Origin: Synergistaceae bacterium
GTDB taxonomy: Bacteria > Synergistota > Synergistia > Synergistales > Aminobacteriaceae
Assembly (NCBI GenBank): GCA_017475805.1
Contig: JAFVEW010000223.1
Span: 1-8,219, forward strand
DNA length: 8,219 nt
Direction of reading: 5' to 3'
In this document: in pieces, positions 1-8,219 of the stretch
Layout of the letters: each line of letters opens with the position of its first letter
How positions within the stretch are numbered: the stretch's first letter is position 1
Notes under the pieces: generated by a model
Told to the model about the DNA's origin: nothing
What the model saw: the letters and a program-made list of their open reading frames with translations, nothing else
Database searches by the model: none
Position numbers and translations under genes: made by a program

Positions 1-369
1 GCTCCGAACAAAGTCGAAACGGCAAAATATTTATCTGACCGATTGGGCGTTACGACCGTAATTAAAGAGCAGGAGAGCATTTCGTTTCAAGGCGGAACGG
101 GAATTTTTGCCAAAAAGAGTGTAACGAAGTCCCAGCAGGAAGTTCAGAGAGCCGTCTTAACGCCTGACGAAATTATGAGATTGCCCGGACCTGTTAAAGA
201 CGTGAATCAAAATATCGTAGAGCCAGGCGACATGTTGATTTTTTCGGCAGGATTCCCTCCGATTTACGGAAAACAGATTTTATATTTCCTCGACAAGATT
301 TTTTCAGAACGCTCAAAGATTGACGCTCCTGAGAAAAGCGATGTTATCAGGCTTGAATTGGCGGCTTAA
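1..369 (+). CDS. VirD4/TraG-family type IV coupling protein, C-terminal fragment (5' end outside window)
   Basis: This is the last 122 residues of a conjugative coupling protein, the membrane ATPase that passes the relaxosome to the type IV secretion channel. The frame is open to the window edge, so the gene starts further left and the TTG at 43 is not a real start. The recognisable part is the conserved family tail: a VLTPDEIMRLPGP segment, then EPGDMLIFSAGFPPIYGKQI, then ILYFLDKIFSERS and a closing APEKSD. The Walker motifs lie outside the window. The stop at 367-369 is 23 bp inside the 3' end of the convergent nuclease-like gene, and I see no terminator between them. A second, frameshifted copy of its final ~70 bp occurs at 1259-1329. 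Family assignment rests on recalled consensus and is fairly sure. Confidence 0.85.
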   Translation, partial: APNKVETAKYLSDRLGVTTVIKEQESISFQGGTGIFAKKSVTKSQQEVQRAVLTPDEIMRLPGPVKDVNQNIVEPGDMLIFSAGFPPIYGKQILYFLDKIFSERSKIDAPEKSDVIRLELAA

Positions 370-976
370 AATCGAATTTCTGTTTAAGATTTTCTGAATT
401 AACGAGGCATGAAACATTAACTTTTTTCGCGGAATAGCATGGCGTTAGAGGATAAAATCTTTGAGGAATATTTTTTTTGAAAATTGCGAGGATTCTTTTT
501 TGTGGACGTACCGATATGTCCCTGATATCTTCGCGGAGGGCAGTGTTGGGAATGTAATAATTATTTTCTTTTACAAATCCCATGCAGGCGTAAATATTTC
601 CTGCGACTTTTTCAGTGAAAAGCACGGACTTCGTAAAATCATAAGTTCCGACCATTTTGGCGCATGTCTGAATTTTCATAAGTTGCGGAAGTATGGATAA
701 TTTCATGTCCGTAGTGCCGTTATCGGCAAATGAAAAATCCGACGGGCTTAATTTTCCACGCAGACATCTTTCGTAAAAGTCAACGCTTCCGCCAACGCGC
801 TCCTCGAAAATTTTAACGCCTGTCAAATGTAAAAAATTTCTTGGAAGAAAAGAAGCCTCGAAAAATTCGGGGGATTTTTCCGCTCCAAAGATAAAAAGCA
901 GATTTTTATTTTCTAAATTTTCGTTATAAAGTTTTGCACATTCAGTAATAACCTTTATGGCGTTTTCTTTTTTCAT
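347..976 (-). CDS. PBECR4-type (Barnase-EndoU-ColicinE5/D-RelE-like) nuclease-fold protein
   Basis: The gene encodes a 209-residue soluble protein with no signal peptide or membrane segment. It resembles the PBECR4 family, predicted RNase-fold domains carried by phages and mobile elements. Motifs in order are FLPRNFLHLTGV (about 43-54, with H50), a GSVDFYERCLRGKLS segment (63-77), a KMVGTYDF segment (107-114), FTEKVAGNIYACMGF (120-134), YYIPNTALREDIRD (140-153) and KRILAIFKK (160-168). Length is near what I recall for the family. The ATG at 976 follows AAAGGAAA at 990-983 with good spacing. It is convergent with the coupling protein gene and overlaps it by 23 bp. The mRNA would carry a long structured leader (977 to about 1190). 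Whether it acts as toxin, effector or phage-defence nuclease is unknown, and no antitoxin partner is visible. Fold assignment is inference from remembered motifs. Confidence 0.7.
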   Translation of the reverse strand: MKKENAIKVITECAKLYNENLENKNLLFIFGAEKSPEFFEASFLPRNFLHLTGVKIFEERVGGSVDFYERCLRGKLSPSDFSFADNGTTDMKLSILPQLMKIQTCAKMVGTYDFTKSVLFTEKVAGNIYACMGFVKENNYYIPNTALREDIRDISVRPQKRILAIFKKNIPQRFYPLTPCYSAKKVNVSCLVNSENLKQKFDFKPPIQA

Positions 977-998
977 AAAAAATTTCCTTTCAAAATTC

Positions 999-1041
999 TA
1001 AAAGGGAGCGAACACACCTCAGCGTATCACGCTCCCTTTTA
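999..1041 (-). promoter_or_regulatory. 12-bp stem-loop in the PBECR4 leader, terminator/attenuator-like
   Basis: A perfect 12-bp inverted repeat (arms 999-1010 and 1030-1041, TAAAAGGGAGCG and its complement) encloses a 19-nt loop. Read on the minus strand the stem ends in CCCTTTTA and lies only 9 nt before the RBS of the nuclease-like gene. A competing 5-bp hairpin (AGCGT 1021-1025 with ACGCT 1029-1033) uses the same arm. It could be an attenuator, an insulator against read-through, or a translational control hairpin. The T tract is short (four), so termination is uncertain. Confidence 0.5.
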
Positions 1042-1047
1042 ATGGCT

Positions 1048-1175
1048 GATTTTTCTGCTGTCCGCCAGCGGTCGGCACATAAGTCCGACAGGAACACAGA
1101 TTTTTCAGTTGTCTGCCAACGACCGACACATAAGTTCGGCAAGTATTTCGGATTTTAGGTGTCAGCCCACCAACG
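1048..1175. repeat. Tandem imperfect 51-bp repeat (two copies and a degenerate third) with conserved stem-loops
   Basis: Copy 1 is 1048-1098 and copy 2 is 1099-1149, both opening with GATTTTTC. A degenerate third copy begins near 1151 and fades by about 1175. Each full copy carries the loop CACATAAGT (1076-1084 and 1127-1135) between complementary arms: GTCGG/CCGAC in copy 1 and CCGA/TCGG in copy 2. Two base pairs differ between copies with both partners changed, and the pairing is kept. An alternative outer pairing (1058-1062 with 1087-1091; 1109-1113 with 1138-1142) is also kept in both copies. The repeat lies in the upstream region of the nuclease-like gene. Confidence 0.65.
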
Positions 1176-1195
1176 AATTAAATTCATTAAAATAA

Positions 1196-1201
1196 ATTAT
1201 A
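1196..1201 (-). promoter_or_regulatory. Possible -10 (TATAAT) for the PBECR4 gene
   Basis: A perfect TATAAT on the minus strand lies 220 nt upstream of the nuclease-like gene. No convincing -35 hexamer sits at 16-18 bp. If it is used, the transcript leader would include the tandem stem-loop repeat and the 12-bp hairpin. The surrounding sequence is very AT-rich, so chance occurrence is possible. Confidence 0.3.
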
Positions 1202-1258
1202 TCTCATAAACTAAAAATATGTTTTTACAAAAATTCCGTATTCATCTTTTATCAGCAT

Positions 1259-1350
1259 ATTTTATATTTTCCCGACAAAATATTTTCAGAACGCTCGAAA
1301 TGACGCGCCTGAGAAAAGCGATGTTATTTATGAAAAAGCGGCGCAATTAA
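1259..1350 (+). pseudogene. Displaced remnant of the traG/virD4 3' end
   Basis: Positions 1259-1329 align with 277-347 of the coupling protein gene at roughly 88% identity: six or seven substitutions and a net 2-nt deletion. The weaker match continues to about 1350. In the coupling-protein frame the copy reads ILYFPDKIFSERSK and then hits a TGA at 1301-1303, so it is not functional. No start codon or RBS belongs to it. The rest of the gene is absent upstream of it. It is therefore a duplicated gene end, separated from the intact one by the nuclease cassette. Confidence 0.8.
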
Positions 1351-1371
1351 TGATAATAGTTTATAATTGAT

Positions 1372-1404
1372 TACGAGTTTTTAAGAACTCGTATGTGATA
1401 TAAT
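1372..1404 (+). promoter_or_regulatory. Promoter and palindromic operator of the Xre regulator
   Basis: An 8-bp perfect inverted repeat, TACGAGTT (1372-1379) and AACTCGTA (1386-1393) with a 6-nt spacer, abuts an extended -10 element TGATATAAT (1396-1404, hexamer 1399-1404). No good -35 is seen, as is usual for extended -10 promoters. A palindrome covering the -35 region of an Xre-type gene suggests autorepression. This promoter may also serve rep downstream. Confidence 0.55.
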
Positions 1405-1439
1405 TATCCAAATTAAATTTTGACAAAGAGGTGAAGAAC

Positions 1440-1724
1440 GTGGAATTGAAAGCTGGCTTCAAAATAGCGGTGCTTAATTGGAAAGACGTGTGTAAGACGG
1501 TCGAATTCTACCGACGTTCTTTGAATCTGTCTCAACGAGGGTTAGCAAGAATTTTAGGAGTTGAGTCAACTACAGTAGGTGTTTGGGAGAGAGGAATAAA
1601 AGAACCTAAAGCCTCAAATCTTGCGAAATTAGCGCAAGTTTTTGGGGTATCAGAAACTGATTTGCTACATCCCTCAGCAAAGGTTCTGAAAAAGATAGAT
1701 AAGATGAACGCAAAAGCACCTTAA
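1440..1724 (+). CDS. Xre/Cro-family helix-turn-helix transcriptional regulator
   Basis: The gene encodes a 94-residue DNA-binding protein of the HTH_3 type. The HTH core spans about residues 22-76: FYRRSLNLSQRGLARILGVE, then STTVGVWERG, then the typical EPKASNLAKLAQVFGVS segment. I start it at GTG 1440 rather than GTG 1431, because AGAGGTGA (1427-1434) is a near-perfect Shine-Dalgarno that would overlap the 1431 codon but is 5 nt from 1440. The short N-terminal extension (MELKAGFKIAVLNWKDVCKT) and the lysine-rich C-terminal tail show no domain. It lies 244 bp upstream of rep on the same strand and could share a transcript with it. The palindrome at 1372-1393 is its likely operator. It may control rep, but that is inference from position. 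Confidence 0.85.
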   Translation: MELKAGFKIAVLNWKDVCKTVEFYRRSLNLSQRGLARILGVESTTVGVWERGIKEPKASNLAKLAQVFGVSETDLLHPSAKVLKKIDKMNAKAP

Positions 1725-1848
1725 AAAAAAGCACCCAGTGCAGATTCGAGAGTCCAGCAAGGGTGCGTAACGATTCGCTGCTTGCATAATCCAACCTCCT
1801 ACCAAAGATTTTGGATTAAAGCAGACACATTTTTCCTAAATGTTCTGC
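1722..1848 (-). ncRNA. Candidate countertranscribed (antisense) RNA to the rep leader
   Basis: On the minus strand an extended -10, TGATATACT (1861-1853), would start transcription near 1848-1846. A terminator-like end follows: GCACCC (1766-1761), a 24-nt loop, GGGTGC (1736-1731) and eight Ts (1730-1723). The predicted RNA is about 125 nt and opens with a strong hairpin (the complement of 1818-1851). It lies wholly within the leader of rep on the other strand, the position used by copy-number control RNAs of many plasmids. It also contains TAGGAGG seven bases before an ATG (1787), so a coding or dual role is possible. Promoter and terminator are visible; function is inferred. Confidence 0.5.
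1723..1766 (-). terminator. Intrinsic terminator of the minus-strand RNA
   Basis: The stem GCACCC/GGGTGC (1761-1766 with 1731-1736) is followed on the minus strand by an uninterrupted run of eight Ts. A tighter GCAC-TGG-GTGC hairpin right against the T run could serve instead. There is no T run on the plus strand, so it should not stop transcripts heading into rep. Confidence 0.6.
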
Positions 1849-1851
1849 TTT
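1818..1851 (+). promoter_or_regulatory. Rep leader stem-loop I (antisense target)
   Basis: Arms AAAGCAGA (1818-1825) and TCTGCTTT (1844-1851) are extended by ACATTT (1827-1832) and AAATGT (1838-1843). This makes a 14-bp stem with one bulged C (1826) and the five-base loop TTCCT (1833-1837). The bases TTCCTAA (1833-1839) are the exact complement of TTAGGAA at 1925-1931 in the next stem-loop. The minus-strand RNA would carry the mirror hairpin, as expected for loop-loop recognition. Confidence 0.55.
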
Positions 1852-1908
1852 AAGTATATCACAAAATAAGCCTACGGAGTCGCTGTAAAAGATTATGTGA
1901 AGCAGAGA

Positions 1909-1957
1909 AAAAATTTTCAGTCCATTAGGAACGAAAAAATTTTTAATACAAAGGAGG
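1909..1957 (+). promoter_or_regulatory. Rep leader stem-loop II and rep ribosome binding site
   Basis: AAAAATTTT (1909-1917) can pair with AAAATTTTT (1936-1944), a 9-bp A/T stem. It exposes an 18-nt loop containing TTAGGAA (1925-1931), complementary to the loop of stem-loop I. The rep Shine-Dalgarno AAGGAGG (1951-1957) starts 7 nt after the stem. A separate CCTCCT at 1795-1800 in the same leader could pair with AGGAGG (1952-1957). Both suggest that translation of rep depends on leader folding. These are pairings seen by eye, with no energies computed. Confidence 0.45.
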
Positions 1958-1968
1958 CGAACAGACTG

Positions 1969-4900
1969 ATGGAACTTGAAAACAAAATCACGCAAACACA
2001 AGCACAGAACGGTTCTTCGTTCAGTGATGTGTCTGTTGTCCGTCAGTCCGAAAACGCCTCCGTGCAGGGCGGATTTATTTCCGTTGCCTATGTTATTTCT
2101 TGGAGCGAATTTAATAAGGAAACTTCCGAAGAAATCGGTTTTGAACAGGAAAAACGCGAATGGTGCGGATCGCTTTCAGAGCTTAAATCGAAATTAGAGG
2201 ATTTAAGGAAAAGCGCGGATTCTTGCGGTTGCAGTCTTTCAGATTGCCGCGTTTCGTTAGCGGAGTACGCCGAGCCTGAATTAAAATCTGAAAATATTTC
2301 AGAAATAAAATCATTATTCTTACGGATTTTTAATAACGGAAAATTTTATTTCAAAACGCAGGAAGAAGCGAAAGAGTTTTTTCTTGAACATTGCCATAGT
2401 AACGGAATCCCGACACCGAACGAAATTCAGTACGTTATAGACGGCTACTATATTAAATGGAATTTCGAGCAGGGATTTTCGGGAAGTGAAGTTTCGTTAT
2501 GGAAATTTATTCAGAAATTTTTGCATGGGATTTTTGTGAAATTAGGCTCGGACGCTTCAATCTGTCAGGACGCGACCGCAATGCTTTATGCGTCAGGATT
2601 CAGCACGGTATTCGACCCCTGCGAGAAGACTTCAATAATTTTCAGTAATGATGAGAACTATGCTTCGCCGATAGAATTTTTGTCAAAACTTCCGTTGAAT
2701 TTTTCAGAAATCGCGGACTATGAAAAGGCAAAAAAAATTGTCCCGTTATGTGCTAAAATTTACAAAGACAAAAGAAATTATAGCGAGAATCGAGACGTTG
2801 AAAAAATTATAGCACAGAACGAAGAAAAAAGAATAATAAAAGAGCCTGACGTTACGGAACGGGCGAAGTTATTTTCAGAGGCTTTTACAGACGCATTGAA
2901 AGATGAAAAATGCGTCGGCGAACAGTACCGATATTATCAGCATCGTGCGACAGGCGACCCGAAGAAATTTTATAAGTGGCTTGAAATAAATTCGGGCGAA
3001 AAAATTTTGCCGAACTTCGACCCTGAGAGTTACGGCTGGCTGTCTGCGGCAACGTATTATTCGCGTTTCAGACGTAAAAGCAACGTTGCTTCAATCGACT
3101 GCAACTTTTTAGTCATTAAATGGAAAGACTCCGAACTCAGATTTATTCCTGCTCAGGAACAGGGCAAAGAGCTTGTTTTGTCGCGCTGTCATGAGCTTGG
3201 ACTTCCAGAGCCGAAAATAGTTTCAACGCCTGACGGTCTTGAAATCAAATGGTTCTGGAACGACCGAATGTCAAAAATTTTATACGCGAACGACCCGTAT
3301 AATTCGAGATTTAATGACGGCTGGGACGCGGTTCAGAAAAAACTTTTTGAGAAGTTCTGGTATTTCGGAGCTGACGCGAAAAAAATCTGCGCGACAACGA
3401 TGTTCTCGATACCCGGCTCAAAGGACACGAGAAAGACTTTGAAGTCGGACGACAGAATAATCCGCGAAATTCACAATGGCGAAACCGTTGAATCTTACAG
3501 GAATATTCAACGCGCACTTGGACTCAAAGAAACTTTCGAGAACGAACAGCCCGAAGTTTTTGATGAAATTCTTGAGCAGAAATGGCAGAAATTCAGCGAG
3601 GAAAATTCCGAACTCGTAAAAGAATGGCTCGCTGACGTTTTGAAAATTCATCAGGCTGGGCAGAACTGGGTCTGCTTCGGCTTTATTGACGAACAGGGGA
3701 ATTGGAACAACCGCTGGGTTAAGGCATTCGAGATTCGTAAATTTTTAATGAATCTTGTCCGCAAGCCCGAATTTCATGACTGCGATTTTTACGTTTCGCA
3801 GGGAGAATTTTTTGACCGCAACGACAGGCATGTCGAAGATTTAGCCTCGATTAAAGCTGCCTTTGTTGACTTGGATTATAAAGTTCTTGTCGAATACAGA
3901 CCTAAAATTTCCGAAAATCCGACTCCCGAAAAATGGGAAGAACTCGTCAAAGCTCATTGCGAAAAATTCAAAATCCCGTTGCCGAACGACATGGTTTTTT
4001 CGGGCGGCGGCGTTCACGTTAAATGGATTTTTGAAGAAGTTGTTTCGAGGGCAGAACTTGAATTATGGCAGTATGCCCAAAAGTTATTGCTTGAGCAGTT
4101 CAAGACGCTTGGCGCAGACCCCCAAAGCTCAGACGGCGCAAGGGTTTTAAGGCTTGTCGGAACGCTCAACCACAAGGAAAATTCAATCGTCAAAGACAGG
4201 AACGTCAGGGTCATTGACCGCGAATTTTTCTCAAAAAATAAAATTTCATTTAGGGAATTTCTTGACGGCTTGGAAAAATCACAGCCCGAAAACGCCGACG
4301 ACTTTGACAAAGTTAAAGCCGACTGGCAGAGGACTTTGGCTCAGCTTTCAATTAGAGAAGCCGCCATGCTCCGTCCCGATTCTGAAATGAAAATTGATTT
4401 TGAATCGCCGGAGTTTAAGAGAGCCGATGAGTATTATTGGCTTGAAAACACTTTGCGCCACCATAAACTTCACGCGACTTATATCGCCGCTGAAATTTCG
4501 GGCGTAACGAAATGGATCGAAACTTATCAGCTTCATCAGACGCTGAGAATGCTTTACGGGACTCCGAATTTGAAGCTCTCGCTGTCAGAGCTGAAAAGTC
4601 CGGAACTCGCAGAGAAGAAAGAAGCCCTCGAATGGATTCCGTGCAATTACGTAGTTTTGTCGCGCTGTACGGGCGAAACTGTTGAAGAACAGAAAGAAAA
4701 TATTTTTGCCCGTTGCCATGAGTACAGGGGCAGAGGAATCCCCGAACCGAATCAGATAATTAAAATCGGGAAAACTTTGCTTGTTGAATGGACTTATCAG
4801 TCAGTCCTGATATATAAAGCGTTATCGAGATGGCAGATGGTGCAGGAATTTTTGTGCCGCCATTTTGAGGACTGGGGAGCGATGGACAATCCCGAATATC

Positions 4901-6006
4901 TGAAAGCTACGGCGTTGTTGCCAGTGCCGGGCTTCGTTTATGACGGCGAAACCGTGAGGCTCGAATACAGCGATTTAGGGAAGCTGTACACGTTCCACAG
5001 GCTTGCGAACGCTGTTTTGAATTTTTCACAGAAAGAAGTTGAAGAATACAGGAAACAGAAAGCCTCCGAAACGGCAAAACGCGAGGCAAAACGAAAAATT
5101 ACGCCGAAAGTTGCTGTATCTGAAAAAGCCATTGAAAAATTAAAGGCGAAAAATCCAGCCGCTAAATTCAAATTCGCTGATTGGAAGACGATGGCTTTAA
5201 TGCGCTACATGGACATAATAAAATTCCTTGACCTCCAAAGGGAAGCTGACGGCGAAATTCCGCAGAACACGAGGGAATTATGCTGTTTTTGGGCGTTAGT
5301 CTTTGCGCGTCAGGCAGGACTGTTAAAGACTTACGAAGAATTTAAGGCAAAAGCGGAGGAGCTTATAAAATTCTGCGGCATTGAGTTCATGAGCGAGTGT
5401 TTTGTAGCGACGCTCAAAAGCGCGTTCACGAAACATTATTCAGCAAAGACGGACACATTGATTTCCAAGCTCCGCATAACGCCCGAATATCAGAAGCAGA
5501 TGAAAGTCCTGTGTTACGGCATCCGTACTTCCGTCAAGAAACGTCAGCCCCGTGCAGAGTGGCTTGCCGAACATTCGCAGGAGCGTGAGAAGCCGTGGGA
5601 GAAAATGGGATTTTCCAGAGCGAAATATTTTAACTTGAAGAGGCTTGGAATGTTGCCCGAAATTGATAACATATTTGTTAAAAACTCTGGTCATCAATAT
5701 TTAGACTGGTCTAACAATATTATGAGCGCGCGCGCATTATTGTGTTTTCTTGTTCGTTATTTTGAATTGATGAGTTTTATTTTATCAAAGAAGTTGCGCG
5801 TTTTTGTTTTTTCGGCTTTTACTTTGAATTATTCCGCTCAGTCTTGGTTCTTGTCTTTACTTGGGTTTCTTTACTGTCGGGATTTTCGTATTCGTAATCT
5901 GATAACTTTGTTTTTCTTGAAGCGCAGGGTTATCCGACCTAAGAGAAAGAGGAAACGGCAGAGTGGTTGGAGGCTGGATGGCGGATTGATGAATCCGTGC
6001 ATGTGA
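1969..6006 (+). CDS. Large plasmid replication protein with four tandem AEP/RepB-like primase modules, one intact
   Basis: The protein is 1345 residues from ATG 1969, which follows AAGGAGG (1951-1957); an upstream GTG at 1897 lacks an RBS. It probably initiates or primes replication. Four similar modules lie at about 37-250, 299-520, 553-770 and 816-1028. Each has an [HC]xxxxxx[IL]PxP segment, a [KE]W 13-14 residues later, and a helix ending in Gx[DM]. The PxP prolines (150, 415, 672, 927) are 265, 257 and 255 apart. Only module 3 has the archaeo-eukaryotic primase set: VDLDY (D634, D636), SGGGVHVKW (H683) and D722 before RVLRLVGTLNHK. Other modules read RIF, VIK and VLS at DLD, and Y, E and L at the histidine. 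Residues ~1067-1231 form a helical domain closing with a KPWEKMGFSRAKYF helix-turn-helix. The last ~105 residues are hydrophobic and T-rich in codons and may be read-through of a lost stop. Confidence 0.8.
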   Translation: MELENKITQTQAQNGSSFSDVSVVRQSENASVQGGFISVAYVISWSEFNKETSEEIGFEQEKREWCGSLSELKSKLEDLRKSADSCGCSLSDCRVSLAEYAEPELKSENISEIKSLFLRIFNNGKFYFKTQEEAKEFFLEHCHSNGIPTPNEIQYVIDGYYIKWNFEQGFSGSEVSLWKFIQKFLHGIFVKLGSDASICQDATAMLYASGFSTVFDPCEKTSIIFSNDENYASPIEFLSKLPLNFSEIADYEKAKKIVPLCAKIYKDKRNYSENRDVEKIIAQNEEKRIIKEPDVTERAKLFSEAFTDALKDEKCVGEQYRYYQHRATGDPKKFYKWLEINSGEKILPNFDPESYGWLSAATYYSRFRRKSNVASIDCNFLVIKWKDSELRFIPAQEQGKELVLSRCHELGLPEPKIVSTPDGLEIKWFWNDRMSKILYANDPYNSRFNDGWDAVQKKLFEKFWYFGADAKKICATTMFSIPGSKDTRKTLKSDDRIIREIHNGETVESYRNIQRALGLKETFENEQPEVFDEILEQKWQKFSEENSELVKEWLADVLKIHQAGQNWVCFGFIDEQGNWNNRWVKAFEIRKFLMNLVRKPEFHDCDFYVSQGEFFDRNDRHVEDLASIKAAFVDLDYKVLVEYRPKISENPTPEKWEELVKAHCEKFKIPLPNDMVFSGGGVHVKWIFEEVVSRAELELWQYAQKLLLEQFKTLGADPQSSDGARVLRLVGTLNHKENSIVKDRNVRVIDREFFSKNKISFREFLDGLEKSQPENADDFDKVKADWQRTLAQLSIREAAMLRPDSEMKIDFESPEFKRADEYYWLENTLRHHKLHATYIAAEISGVTKWIETYQLHQTLRMLYGTPNLKLSLSELKSPELAEKKEALEWIPCNYVVLSRCTGETVEEQKENIFARCHEYRGRGIPEPNQIIKIGKTLLVEWTYQSVLIYKALSRWQMVQEFLCRHFEDWGAMDNPEYLKATALLPVPGFVYDGETVRLEYSDLGKLYTFHRLANAVLNFSQKEVEEYRKQKASETAKREAKRKITPKVAVSEKAIEKLKAKNPAAKFKFADWKTMALMRYMDIIKFLDLQREADGEIPQNTRELCCFWALVFARQAGLLKTYEEFKAKAEELIKFCGIEFMSECFVATLKSAFTKHYSAKTDTLISKLRITPEYQKQMKVLCYGIRTSVKKRQPRAEWLAEHSQEREKPWEKMGFSRAKYFNLKRLGMLPEIDNIFVKNSGHQYLDWSNNIMSARALLCFLVRYFELMSFILSKKLRVFVFSAFTLNYSAQSWFLSLLGFLYCRDFRIRNLITLFFLKRRVIRPKRKRKRQSGWRLDGGLMNPCM
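5663..5788. repeat. Cluster of palindromes inside the 3' tail of rep
   Basis: Within the last part of the rep reading frame are a TAACA/TGTTA inverted repeat near 5667-5680, a perfect TTAGAC-TG-GTCTAA palindrome (5701-5714) flanked by AATATT on both sides (5696-5701 and 5716-5721), an uninterrupted (GC)5 tract (5726-5735) and a TTGATGA/TTATCAA near-inverted repeat ending at 5788. This is unusual for coding DNA and fits an intergenic or origin-like stretch. No iteron series was found. Confidence 0.45.
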
Positions 6007-6017
6007 GTTTGCATGTT

Positions 6018-6046
6018 GGGGTTGTGTAGTTAGCCGCCCCGTTTTT
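6018..6046 (+). terminator. Possible rep terminator
   Basis: Twelve bases after the rep stop, GGGGTT (6018-6023) can pair with AGCC-G-CCC (6032-6039) with a bulged G and one G-T pair, followed by GTTTTT (6041-6046). The stem is short, so this is a weak call. Confidence 0.35.
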
Positions 6047-6157
6047 CGCATTTTGTCGTTTTAATTTTTCGCACATGGTTTTGATTTTATGCCGCTATAA
6101 TTTTTGACATTGAAGTGGTCGGACTTAAATCCTAAAAAAAGTATTTGTGTAAAGTTT

Positions 6158-6173
6158 ATGATATGACTATCAT
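6158..6173. repeat. Inverted repeat ATGATA-TGAC-TATCAT upstream of parA
   Basis: A perfect 6-bp inverted repeat with a 4-bp spacer lies 24 bp before the par -35. A second short palindrome, GTTAA-T-TTAAC, is at 6180-6190. Together with the operator-like repeat at 6206-6236 they could form part of a centromere or operator array for the RHH protein. They do not share one motif, which weakens this idea. Confidence 0.3.
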
Positions 6174-6196
6174 GTAACAGTTAATTTAACACATAA

Positions 6197-6236
6197 TTGA
6201 AATAAGTTTAGTAAAGAAGTATAATAATAACTAAAC
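6197..6236 (+). promoter_or_regulatory. parA promoter with overlapping operator-like inverted repeat
   Basis: TTGAAA (6197-6202) and TATAAT (6220-6225) are separated by exactly 17 bp, a near-consensus housekeeping promoter. A 7-bp perfect inverted repeat, GTTTAGT (6206-6212) and ACTAAAC (6230-6236), brackets the -10. RHH partner proteins commonly repress their own par operon by binding here, so autoregulation is likely. The expected leader is about 70 nt. Confidence 0.6.
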
Positions 6237-6304
6237 AATAAGACTGTTATAAAATATATATACATAAGGAGCATACATAATAATATTGTGTATAAAGTTA
6301 ATAA

Positions 6305-7063
6305 ATGAAAGAAATAATAGGAATTATAAATCAGAAAGGCGGCGTTTCAAAGACAAGCACAGCTTTGGCTTTATGGACAGGCTTGCCAAAATTAAAAGGT
6401 CTTAAAACAGTCTGCGTTGACCTCGATCCGCAATGTAATCTGACGGTAAGCAGTGGCGCGAAGATGGATAACGCTACGATACTTGACGTAATGTTAGAAA
6501 AAATTTCTATCCGTGATGCCGTACAGCATACGAAATTCGGAGATGTTGTCGCAAGTCATAAAGGTTTGAGCGGCATAGAAGTCCTTTTGACTCAGGTAGG
6601 TCGTGAGTATAAGCTGAGAAACGCATTGAAACTCTTATCGGATTATGATGCCGTTATTCTTGACACTCCGCCCTCACTTGGAATATTGACGATTAACGCA
6701 TTAACCGCAAGCACTTCCGTCATAATTCCTGCAAACGCGGATTTCTTTTCAATGTATGGAATATCACAGCTTGGCGAAACGATAGAATCCGTAAAAGAAT
6801 ACACGAATCACGGATTAAAAATTGACGGCGTTCTTCTGACGAGATATACGGACAGGACGGTTTTGAGCCGCGATATGGCAGAGAACATCAGGAAACTTGC
6901 TGAACGTTTGAAGACAAAAGTTTTTAAGACGACAATCAGGGAAGCCGTGAGCGTAAGGGAGGCACAAGTATCACAGCAGAGCATATTTGTCCGCGCTCCA
7001 CAGGCTAAGGTTACTCAGGATTACGAAAACTTTATTAACGAATTATGGGAGGAAAGGGAATGA
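6305..7063 (+). CDS. parA: ParA/Soj-family partition ATPase
   Basis: This 252-residue protein is a deviant Walker ATPase that drives plasmid segregation over the nucleoid together with a centromere-binding partner. The deviant Walker A is KGGVSKTS (residues 11-18), followed by VDLDPQCNLT (38-47) and the Walker B region VILDTPPSLG (117-126, D120). There is no N-terminal helix-turn-helix, so it is the short type Ib/Soj form. The ATG at 6305 has no adjacent Shine-Dalgarno; the nearest purine-rich site, AAGGAG (6266-6271), is 33 nt upstream, with stops in this frame between. A seven-codon reading frame from GTG 6288 ends in a TGA overlapping the ATG, so coupled re-initiation is conceivable. The stop overlaps the next gene's ATG, indicating a two-gene par operon. 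Confidence 0.93.
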   Translation: MKEIIGIINQKGGVSKTSTALALWTGLPKLKGLKTVCVDLDPQCNLTVSSGAKMDNATILDVMLEKISIRDAVQHTKFGDVVASHKGLSGIEVLLTQVGREYKLRNALKLLSDYDAVILDTPPSLGILTINALTASTSVIIPANADFFSMYGISQLGETIESVKEYTNHGLKIDGVLLTRYTDRTVLSRDMAENIRKLAERLKTKVFKTTIREAVSVREAQVSQQSIFVRAPQAKVTQDYENFINELWEERE

Positions 7064-7395
7064 AAAAAAATTATCAGGAAGTTAAGGAAAATCCAGCTTT
7101 AAGTTACATCAGCCAAATGAACGATGACAGCAGTGCTTCGGAGCTTGAAACCGAACACAGCGAAAATGGAGAGCTGGAAACGGTAATGCGTAATGCCTCA
7201 TCAGTTGAAATCGAACCTGTCCCTTACGGATATAAAATCCGACCTCAGTACAGCGAAATAAAAACACGGAGGGTACAGCTTGTGTTTCCGCCGTCATTAT
7301 TTAGGAAAGTGCAAACTCAGGCGAAAAAATCAAAAATGTCAGTTAATGAATTTGTCTGTCTTGTACTTAATGCTGTTGTCAATAGAGATAATTAA
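7060..7395 (+). CDS. Ribbon-helix-helix partition partner (ParB analogue)
   Basis: The ATG at 7060 overlaps the parA stop as ATGA and follows GGGAGG (7047-7052) with 7 nt spacing; an in-frame ATG at 7045 lies in that RBS and is less likely. The product is 111 residues. Residues 1 to about 65 are acidic and look disordered. The C-terminal ~42 residues fit a ribbon-helix-helix fold: the strand RRVQLVFPPSLF, then helix RKVQTQAKKSK, a turn at MSVNEF and a second helix VCLVLNAVVNR. Small RHH proteins coupled to short ParA proteins (omega- or ParG-like) bind the centromere, repress the operon and stimulate the ATPase. It is not a classical ParB with a CTPase fold. The role is inferred from fold and operon position. 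Confidence 0.8.
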   Translation: MKKNYQEVKENPALSYISQMNDDSSASELETEHSENGELETVMRNASSVEIEPVPYGYKIRPQYSEIKTRRVQLVFPPSLFRKVQTQAKKSKMSVNEFVCLVLNAVVNRDN

Positions 7396-7415
7396 AACAG
7401 TTTATTAGTTGCGTA

Positions 7416-7453
7416 AATGAATGCTGTTACATTATAAAGTAATAGTATTCATT
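7416..7453. terminator. 15-bp stem-loop between convergent genes, possible bidirectional terminator
   Basis: Arms 7416-7430 and 7439-7453 (AATGAATGCTGTTAC and GTAATAGTATTCATT) pair over 15 bp with two G-T pairs around an 8-nt loop. It lies 20 nt after the RHH gene. The downstream sequence is AT-rich but has no clean T run, so it might instead be a protein-binding site. Confidence 0.4.
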
Positions 7454-7473
7454 CTATTTAATAATATTTCTTG

Positions 7474-7500
7474 TTGTGTAGTAATATTACACATACACAA
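7474..7500. repeat. Nested palindromes TTGTGTA / GTAATATTAC / TACACAA
   Basis: A perfect 10-bp palindrome GTAATATTAC (7481-7490) is enclosed by TTGTGTA (7474-7480) and TACACAA (7494-7500). The octamer TTGTGTAT also occurs just upstream of parA (6286-6293) and inverted here (7500-7493). It may be part of a par binding site, or simply AT-rich intergenic structure. The rest of 7396-7563 shows nothing else I can name. Confidence 0.35.
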
Positions 7501-7563
7501 TTTATATCATTATTATAAATAATCATAATGCTTTTCAAGATGGCTTAGCGTAATAATTATCTG

Positions 7564-8142
7564 TTATTCTTCCATGAGCTTTTGAAAGGCTCTTGCTCTG
7601 ATAAGTGTTGTCGTGCTAATGCCAGTCATAGCCACGACCTGTTTATAAGAATGAGTTTTCAGCAGTTCGAGGGCGTGATTTATTTGCGCCCTTGAAAATT
7701 TTTTCGGACGACTCTCACGAAAATCAGGATTTTTACGGGCTATTGCTTTTCCCTCCAAAGTACGCTGTTTTATTATGTCCCGTTCAAATTCGGCAAAGGA
7801 CAGCATAATATTTCGGATTAACTTCCCTGTCGGCGAACCGTCAATTATTCCCATGTTCAAGACGTTGATAATAACGCCTTTGTCGTTGAGGCTTTCAATT
7901 AGCTGAATGCCGTTTATGAGGCTACGGGCTATCCTGTCGAGTTTCATAATAATGAGCGTGTCCCCTGACTGAATAATTTTCAGAAGTTTATCGAGTTCGG
8001 GACGATGATTTTTTGAGCCGCTGAAAACGTCCGAGAAAATTTTTTCTGCCCCTGCTTCTTTTAGGGAGTTAATTTGAGCTTCGAGAGAATTTCCATCACG
8101 AGCCTGAGAGTTTGTGCTTACGCGAGCATAGCCAAAAATCAA
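7564..8142 (-). CDS. Small serine recombinase (Tn3 resolvase / Hin invertase family)
   Basis: The 192-residue protein opens with [10 protein letters not shown], in which S9 is the expected catalytic serine. The family pattern continues with [20 protein letters not shown], a [16 protein letters not shown] stretch, [12 protein letters not shown] with the catalytic arginine region, and [17 protein letters not shown] forming the long dimer helix. The C-terminal ~45 residues are a helix-turn-helix ([20 protein letters not shown], then [13 protein letters not shown]). Length is normal. The start is TTG 8142; GGATGTGAT (8154-8146), one mismatch from a full Shine-Dalgarno, precedes it by 3 nt, and nearby ATGs are out of frame. 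On a plasmid its likely job is multimer resolution. An invertase role cannot be excluded. It converges on the par operon. Confidence 0.92.
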
Positions 8143-8156
8143 AAAATCACATCCAT

Positions 8157-8192
8157 TTATGAGTATAAGTTATGAGAACGCATTTTTAGCGT
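8157..8192. promoter_or_regulatory. Possible resolvase binding region (partial res) and promoter
   Basis: Just upstream of the resolvase gene are a direct repeat TTATGAG (8157-8163 and 8170-8176) and a short inverted repeat ACGC/GCGT (8178-8181 and 8189-8192). A minus-strand TATACT (8167-8162) could be a -10. res sites usually lie here, but the window ends before a full set of subsites could be seen. Confidence 0.3.
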
Positions 8193-8219
8193 ATTTTACA
8201 GCACTGAAAAAAAATCCCA

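Follow-up and report, generated by a model that had tools for sequence, protein, structure and literature searches.

Replication proteins built on an archaeo-eukaryotic primase (AEP) domain include RepE/RepS and PrimHYQ, which combine one AEP domain with PriCT-1 and a helix-turn-helix (HTH) and contain no helicase, as described in the accessible part of PMC5862659. According to the same partial text, ColE2 Rep unwinds DNA with its PriCT-1 and HTH parts, and RepB′ of RSF1010 (3h20, 3h25) consists of one AEP followed by PriCT-1 and carries Gln, not His, in motif II. The structure entry for cyanophage S-2L PrimPol (6zp9, AEP domain) also comprises one AEP domain. Here we analyse an 8,219-nucleotide stretch of a Synergistaceae bacterium (contig JAFVEW010000223.1 of assembly GCA_017475805.1, positions 1 to 8,219, forward strand), hereafter the window. 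ORF (open reading frame) calls and a homologue search identify in it a replication initiator/primase gene (1969..6006, + strand) whose 1345-residue product is designated P0001. P0001 is an AEP initiator of the plasmid type, and its new feature is a set of tandem dead AEP copies.

P0001 contains four homologous modules (M1–M4), an AEP fold in M2–M4, a full catalytic set in M3 only, and a C-terminal domain in common with plasmid initiators that have a single AEP. It resembles RepE/RepS and PrimHYQ, as far as the accessible part of PMC5862659 describes them, in its mobile-element location, in the presence of motifs I–IV (in M3), in a helical, HTH-like C-terminal part, and in that no helicase domain was found. 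It departs from their uniform layout of a single AEP, PriCT-1 and HTH by its extra AEP modules; proteins of the present kind have two to four, one of them live. P0001 has no Pfam match to PriCT, and its helical part is common to single-AEP relatives. The accessible parts of the literature searched (PMC5862659, PMC4538821, PMC5700102, and PMC10345425), in which subscription papers are thinly covered, describe no layout with tandem or inactivated AEPs.

Domain organisation of P0001

The gene lies within a long ORF (1897–6006, +). A ribosome-binding site, AAGGAGG, can be read at 1951..1957 (+), and the ATG at 1969 follows eleven bases past it, giving 1345 residues. The chain is sequentially composed of M1 (residues about 36–250; 2074..2718), M2 (about 293–520; 2845..3528), M3 (about 541–769; 3589..4275), M4 (about 812–1022; 4402..5034), a C-terminal helical region (1069–1235; 5173..5673), and a variable tail (5674..6003), all on the + strand. 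M1 is AEP-like, as judged by profile matches and the order of strands and helices, and lacks motif I and the motif-II His. M2 and M4 are dead AEPs, and M3 is the sole AEP module with the catalytic set.

The C-terminal region was delimited by predicted helices, which extend up to residue 1200, and by its profile. Its end is probably a helix-turn-helix, an assignment helped by HTH matches in the relatives P0042 and P0049. The tail is a long stop-free stretch, poorly conserved as protein, with a hydrophobic segment followed by a polybasic KRKRKR end.

Database scans locate the signal in M3. Two PHROGs families, 25314 (E 6e-10) and 9432 (E 3e-5), both match P0001 there, and scans of P0001 against Pfam, NCBIfam, and PADLOC gave no useful match. 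RepB_primase (PF16793, cut-off 24.3) has no match in P0001 and is matched by the relatives P0037 (25.7), P0039 (25.1), and P0049 (28.5). When the full alignment was searched against the sequences of solved structures, the best E was only 1.5.

Four modules of common origin

The homologue set comprises 36 proteins besides the query at E ≤ 0.001, among the best 7993 candidates (those sharing most words) that were scored. The core family is an alignment of 26 rows with four modules each, from which the module profiles were built. An initial annotation, made from the letters of the window, had described four copies of one pattern in this protein, and the positions check out. The PxP motifs have their second proline at residues 150, 415, 672, and 927 (spacings 265, 257, and 255), and the tryptophan of a KW or EW pair follows 13–14 residues on, at 164, 428, 686, and 941. 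For M1–M4 in order, the proline column holds Pro in 26, 26, 25, and 24 of the 26 relatives, and the tryptophan column Trp in 26, 25, 24, and 26.

Pairwise hhalign comparisons of the module profiles give probabilities of 98.3% for M1–M2, 98.8% for M1–M3, 98.0% for M1–M4, 98.5% for M2–M3, 95.8% for M2–M4, and 96.0% for M3–M4, with E values of the six pairs from 5e-17 to 8e-9. Sixteen control comparisons of forward against reversed profiles stay at or below 9.5%, and comparisons of each of the four modules with the C-terminal domain give 0.2–0.3%. In addition, the module hidden Markov models (HMMs) match other modules of the same chain; among the matches listed, the M1 model scores 50 bits on M3 of P0001. 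On this sequence-level evidence, the four-fold pattern of P0001 is confirmed as real and beyond chance.

Self-BLASTP of the single P0001 sequence found no internal repeat, so the repeat is visible at the profile level only. Repeat detection, proposed earlier as a check, thus returned significant self-similarity between profiles but none for the lone sequence. The empty self-BLASTP would suit a chance or low-complexity likeness, an explanation that we find barely credible; the profile comparisons with their reversed controls, together with the structure matches described next, refute it for M2, M3, and M4.

Predicted structures of M2 and M3 match AEP structures, and so does M4 when predicted alone. 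In the long predicted model, the strand and helix order of M1 is broadly like that of the other modules, and the strongest profile match of M1 is M3 (98.8%, as above); M1 is absent from the VIA-align list of structure matches for this model. The anticipated common AEP fold is therefore seen in M2, M3, and M4, but in M1 the likeness is one of element order and profile only. The earlier structural reading, tandem primase-like modules of which three are catalytically dead, is supported.

One catalytic module and three dead modules

AEP and PrimPol-PV1 motifs were defined according to the accessible part of PMC5862659. M3 has the AEP fold together with AEP motif I (hhhDhD), motif II (sxH), and motif III (hD). 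Its active residues are D634 and D636 of the motif-I DLD (3868..3876), H683 of motif II (4015..4017), D722 of motif III (4132..4134), and R728 and N734 of motif IV (4150..4170), all encoded on the + strand. Each is present in 26/26 core rows and in 11/11 members of a tree set that spans the deep lineages. R728 and N734 also conform to motif IV of PrimPol-PV1 (Rh, with Asn six residues on; 26/26). The spacing of six is that of R231 and N237 in PolpTN2, as given in the same part of PMC5862659.

The motif-I acid pair occurs in 0/26 rows of each of M1, M2, and M4, which places these modules outside the active enzymes. As the initial annotation stated, DLD is replaced by RIF, VIK, and VLS, and the motif-II His by Y, E, and L, in M1, M2, and M4, respectively. 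It had also assigned the catalytic set to M3 alone. This holds for the complete metal site (26/26 rows, 11/11 lineages) but not for the third acidic residue, because M1 retains the motif-III Asp (D201) in 21/26.

The dead modules keep different remnants. M1 in the core rows has, besides this Asp, the motif-IV Asn in 18/26 and Tyr at the motif-II His position in 23/26. In M2, the motif-II position is Glu in 26/26, and the module retains the motif-IV Arg in 8, the Asn in 10, and both in 4 of 26; in the tree set, both motif-IV residues are present in 8/11 and the second motif-I Asp in 3/11 (P0037, L028r, and L029r). In M4, Pro replaces the motif-IV Arg and Tyr the motif-IV Asn, each in 26/26. Within the tree set, the first motif-I position is Glu in M4 of L029r, M4 of P0037 and L030r has Glu at motif III, and M4 of P0037 has the motif-IV Asn; a single motif-I acid is also left in M1 of L028r. 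Because such remnants persist in the dead modules, the loss was graded rather than a single event. The proposed loss of catalysis in three copies is thus correct in that the acid pair is gone from M1, M2, and M4, with the qualification that the loss is graded in M2.

Selection and charge

Mean pairwise identity among the 26 sequences is 0.541 for M1, 0.638 for M2, 0.670 for M3, 0.685 for M4, and 0.619 for the C-terminal domain, compared with 0.27–0.51 for the linkers and 0.258 for the tail. The ratio of nonsynonymous to synonymous substitution rates (dN/dS, NG86) was computed for one close pair with DNA, L026 and L032 (77% identical), which covers only the end of M2 and does not reach M1. The ratio is 0.087 in M3, 0.134 in M4, 0.121 in the end of M2, 0.069 in the C-terminal domain, 0.287 in the linker between M3 and M4, and 0.89 in the tail, where dS is lowest. 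By this estimate from one pair, purifying selection is acting on M4 and on the end of M2.

These values bear on the idea that the dead modules are functionless remnants in decay. The loss of catalytic residues from three modules speaks for it, as does the variation in module number, P0034 and P0035 being without M1 and M4. It is contradicted by the dN/dS of M4 and the end of M2 against that of the tail, by identities of M2 and M4 near that of M3, and by the recurrence of the order 2-3-4 in every deep lineage of the tree set. We regard it as very improbable.

The modules also differ in mean net charge over the 26 sequences: M1 is −12.5 (residues 55–255), M2 +7.2 (range −2 to +13), M3 0.0, M4 −3.0, the C-terminal domain +7.2, and the tail +16.7.

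Proposed function

We propose, with slightly better than even confidence, that P0001 is the initiator-primase of a conjugative or mobilisable element and that its dead modules are kept as built-in helper subunits. The data suggest that dead enzyme copies have been re-used as helper parts; the initial annotation had proposed that they might be retained to bind template, iterons, or a partner. The C-terminal domain would recognise and open the origin, and M3 would lay the primer. M2, which is basic on average, would most likely grip the template next to the active site, in the manner of PriL/PriX with PriS; in branches with the motif-IV Arg and Asn, it may also hold the initiating nucleotide. 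The acidic M1 and the M4, slightly acidic in the core family, would most likely provide scaffold or partner-binding surfaces.

Several observations weigh against this proposal. The assignment of jobs to the dead modules is its weak part. The long predicted model has a predicted template-modelling score (pTM) of 0.38 and does not fix the relative placement of the modules. Conservation is lower in M1 than in M3 (0.541 vs 0.670), the charge of M4 varies from −15 to +5 in the tree set, and the M2 of P0001 itself is about neutral (+1). This M2 also lacks the motif-IV pair, having S480 and D486 instead. A nucleotide-holding M2 is little supported in the core branch, because the pair is found in only 4/26 rows and not in P0001.

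The same charges and losses could mean that the dead modules are purely protein-binding, contacting a host helicase, single-stranded-DNA-binding protein, ParA, or resolvase and neither nucleic acid nor nucleotide. M1 is acidic and M4 slightly so, M2 has lost the motif-IV pair in 22/26 core rows, no helicase is present among the seven window ORFs scanned, and a resolvase lies close to the gene both in the window and in 4/7 fetched relatives. A basic M2 (+7.2 on average) and a motif-IV pair kept in 8/11 of the tree set would be needless for protein binding alone, and we consider this explanation rather unlikely, if a serious contender.

Rep proteins commonly bind repeated sites. Four similar modules in a single chain could accordingly each be an origin-binding unit reading one copy of a repeated site, so that one chain replaces a Rep oligomer on iterons. 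Searches of stretches near the gene (the window, L026, L027, L028, and L032) turned up no four-fold direct repeat. M1 is acidic and M4 slightly acidic, and the residues in the active-site columns differ strongly between the modules. An iteron-reading role is quite improbable on these grounds.

The proposal of an initiator-primase with built-in helpers has parallels in known polymerases. The catalytic subunit of DNA polymerase epsilon has a second, inactivated polymerase half. P0001 is alike in having live and dead copies of one polymerase fold in a replication protein, and differs in that polymerase epsilon is a B-family enzyme with two copies. A chain that has both a live copy and several dead ones of a single fold makes the role of a dead polymerase copy testable. 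PriS is another catalytic AEP helped by a non-catalytic part, PriL/PriX, and PriX binds the initiating nucleotide alongside PriS (accessible part of PMC5700102). PriX is related to the Fe-S domain of PriL and not to AEP, according to this source, whereas the helpers here would be dead AEP copies in the same chain, with a putative role in nucleotide binding. A more far-reaching view takes P0001 as a primosome in one chain. Duplicated and inactivated AEP copies would then have come to provide the initiation site, grip the template, and act as scaffold, tasks that other primases leave to unrelated subunits (PriL/PriX, PriCT). We put this forward tentatively and think it unlikely; if true, it shows one way in which a polymerase can give rise to its own helper subunits.

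Relatives and evolution of the module layout

Three of the 37 proteins (query included) are named homologues, all from Synergistaceae metagenome bins. Four loci in species genomes belong to Synergistaceae from goat reticulum. Among genomes of the phylum of G002, 7/185 match, two of these by weak fragments only.

The number of modules varies among homologues, a point raised initially as worth checking, and ranges from one to four. The counts that follow leave out several shorter matches that are possibly cut by contig ends. Four modules are present in the 26 aligned rows and L028r. Three modules, in the order 2-3-4, are found in P0032, P0036, P0037, P0039, L029r, L030r, P0052, P0053, and P0054. 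P0034 and P0035 have two (2-3), and one module is found in the plasmid proteins of L033–L035, in P0042–P0050, and in 12 viral loci. The two-module layout of P0035 is probably a loss, since P0035 is nested in the tree. In L030r and P0037, a leader of the four-module type (SEAAS or SENAS) stands shortly ahead of M2, suggesting a clean gain or loss of M1. With natural versions of two, three, and four AEP modules and several stages of M2 decay, stepwise module removal can be compared with relatives.

In a tree of 45 module sequences, M2 (support 100/99) and M4 (98/98) each form one side of a branch, and M3 does so weakly (72/49). M1 is not one group, the M1 of L028r lying beside M4 (86/78). M1, M2, and M4 come together (97/94), possibly pulled by long branches. 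The same lineage order recurs within M2, M3, and M4, and their duplications therefore predate the divergence of the family. A single quadruplication is improbable, because all deep lineages of the tree set have the order 2-3-4, whereas M1 occurs only in the core rows and L028r. The internal quadruplication proposed initially thus stands as four homologous modules but probably not as one event. An approximately unbiased (AU) test did not reject a single clade of M1–M4 against the single-AEP relatives (p 0.38), which does not demonstrate that clade.

The single-AEP plasmid proteins of L033, L034, and L035 match M3 at 86–95 bits and the C-terminal domain at 22–28 bits. A tblastn search of plasmids returned 471 records, and no record reached 80% coverage of the query; of the 20 matches listed, 15 cover residues 606–1225 in two pieces that together span about 1.1 kb. 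The pieces would correspond to M3 and the C-terminal domain, as if M4 lay between them. Plasmids contain no near DNA match to the window. Viral contigs gave no relative when searched with the single protein and 12 loci when searched with the alignment, each with one AEP (module HMMs, ORFs of at least 120 aa).

Some relatives have distinctive neighbours. In P0037, a three-module replication protein is fused in one ORF to a restriction-modification enzyme of the MmeI type. L028 has a four-module gene (490–4320) and, next to it but separate, an MmeI gene (4563–7343). The three-module version in L029 (1882–9469) lies near phage-type genes (a DUF2800 nuclease and an Enc34-type ssDNA-binding protein), a context that suggests use in prophage replication too.

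A DNA signal within the 3′ end of the gene

A 34-bp near-palindrome (81%) that includes ATATTATGA and a GC core lies at 5713..5746, inside this part of the coding sequence. At this end of the gene, ATATTATGA is often followed by a GC palindrome. It is present in 9/10 loci with this part of the gene (the window, L014, L018, and L026–L032, with L030 lacking it), several of the ten being from one genome. In L029 and L031 it occurs in another reading frame; among dinucleotide shuffles of these two stretches, 9/5000 and 33/5000, respectively, contain it. G001 has the variant ATATTATGASGCG at two such gene ends only, G080 and G084 have one ATATTATGASGCG each on contigs other than that of the gene, and G002 and G003 have none, their copies reading AGCGC. 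Together with near-neutral protein change in the tail and the lowest dS there, these occurrences suggest that the ATATTATGA region is a DNA element. The site at 5713–5746 is possibly an origin or a recombination site.

Genomic neighbourhood

Plasmid or conjugative-element neighbours surround the replication gene. The window opens within the gene of a VirD4/TraG coupling protein, whose C-terminal part it encodes (1–369), followed by a nuclease-like gene of the PBECR4 family (347–976, −; PF18813, 5.5e-35), possibly toxin-like cargo. An HTH_3 regulator lies upstream of the replication gene (1431..1724, +; PF01381, 8.2e-13) and is a possible copy-control repressor. Downstream are a ParA-type partition ATPase (6305..7063, +; PF13614, 4.2e-44), a small gene with sub-threshold similarity to HicB (7045..7395, +; PF05534, E 0.04), which is perhaps a partition partner, and a serine resolvase (7564..8142, −; PF00239, 1.8e-37). 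A similar resolvase lies near the replication gene in L026, L027, L028, and L032 of the seven fetched relatives L026–L032. The coupling protein, nuclease-like gene, regulator, ParA, and resolvase together indicate that the window is part of a conjugative or mobilisable element.

An Rfam scan of the window gave nothing at the gathering threshold. The 3′ end of the coupling-protein gene (274–347) is repeated at 1256–1327, beyond the PBECR4 gene, in two pieces of 86% and 96% identity, an arrangement that looks like a cargo-insertion scar. In addition, a 43-bp repeat is present in two copies (79%), at 1048–1090 and 1099–1141, between the listed genes.

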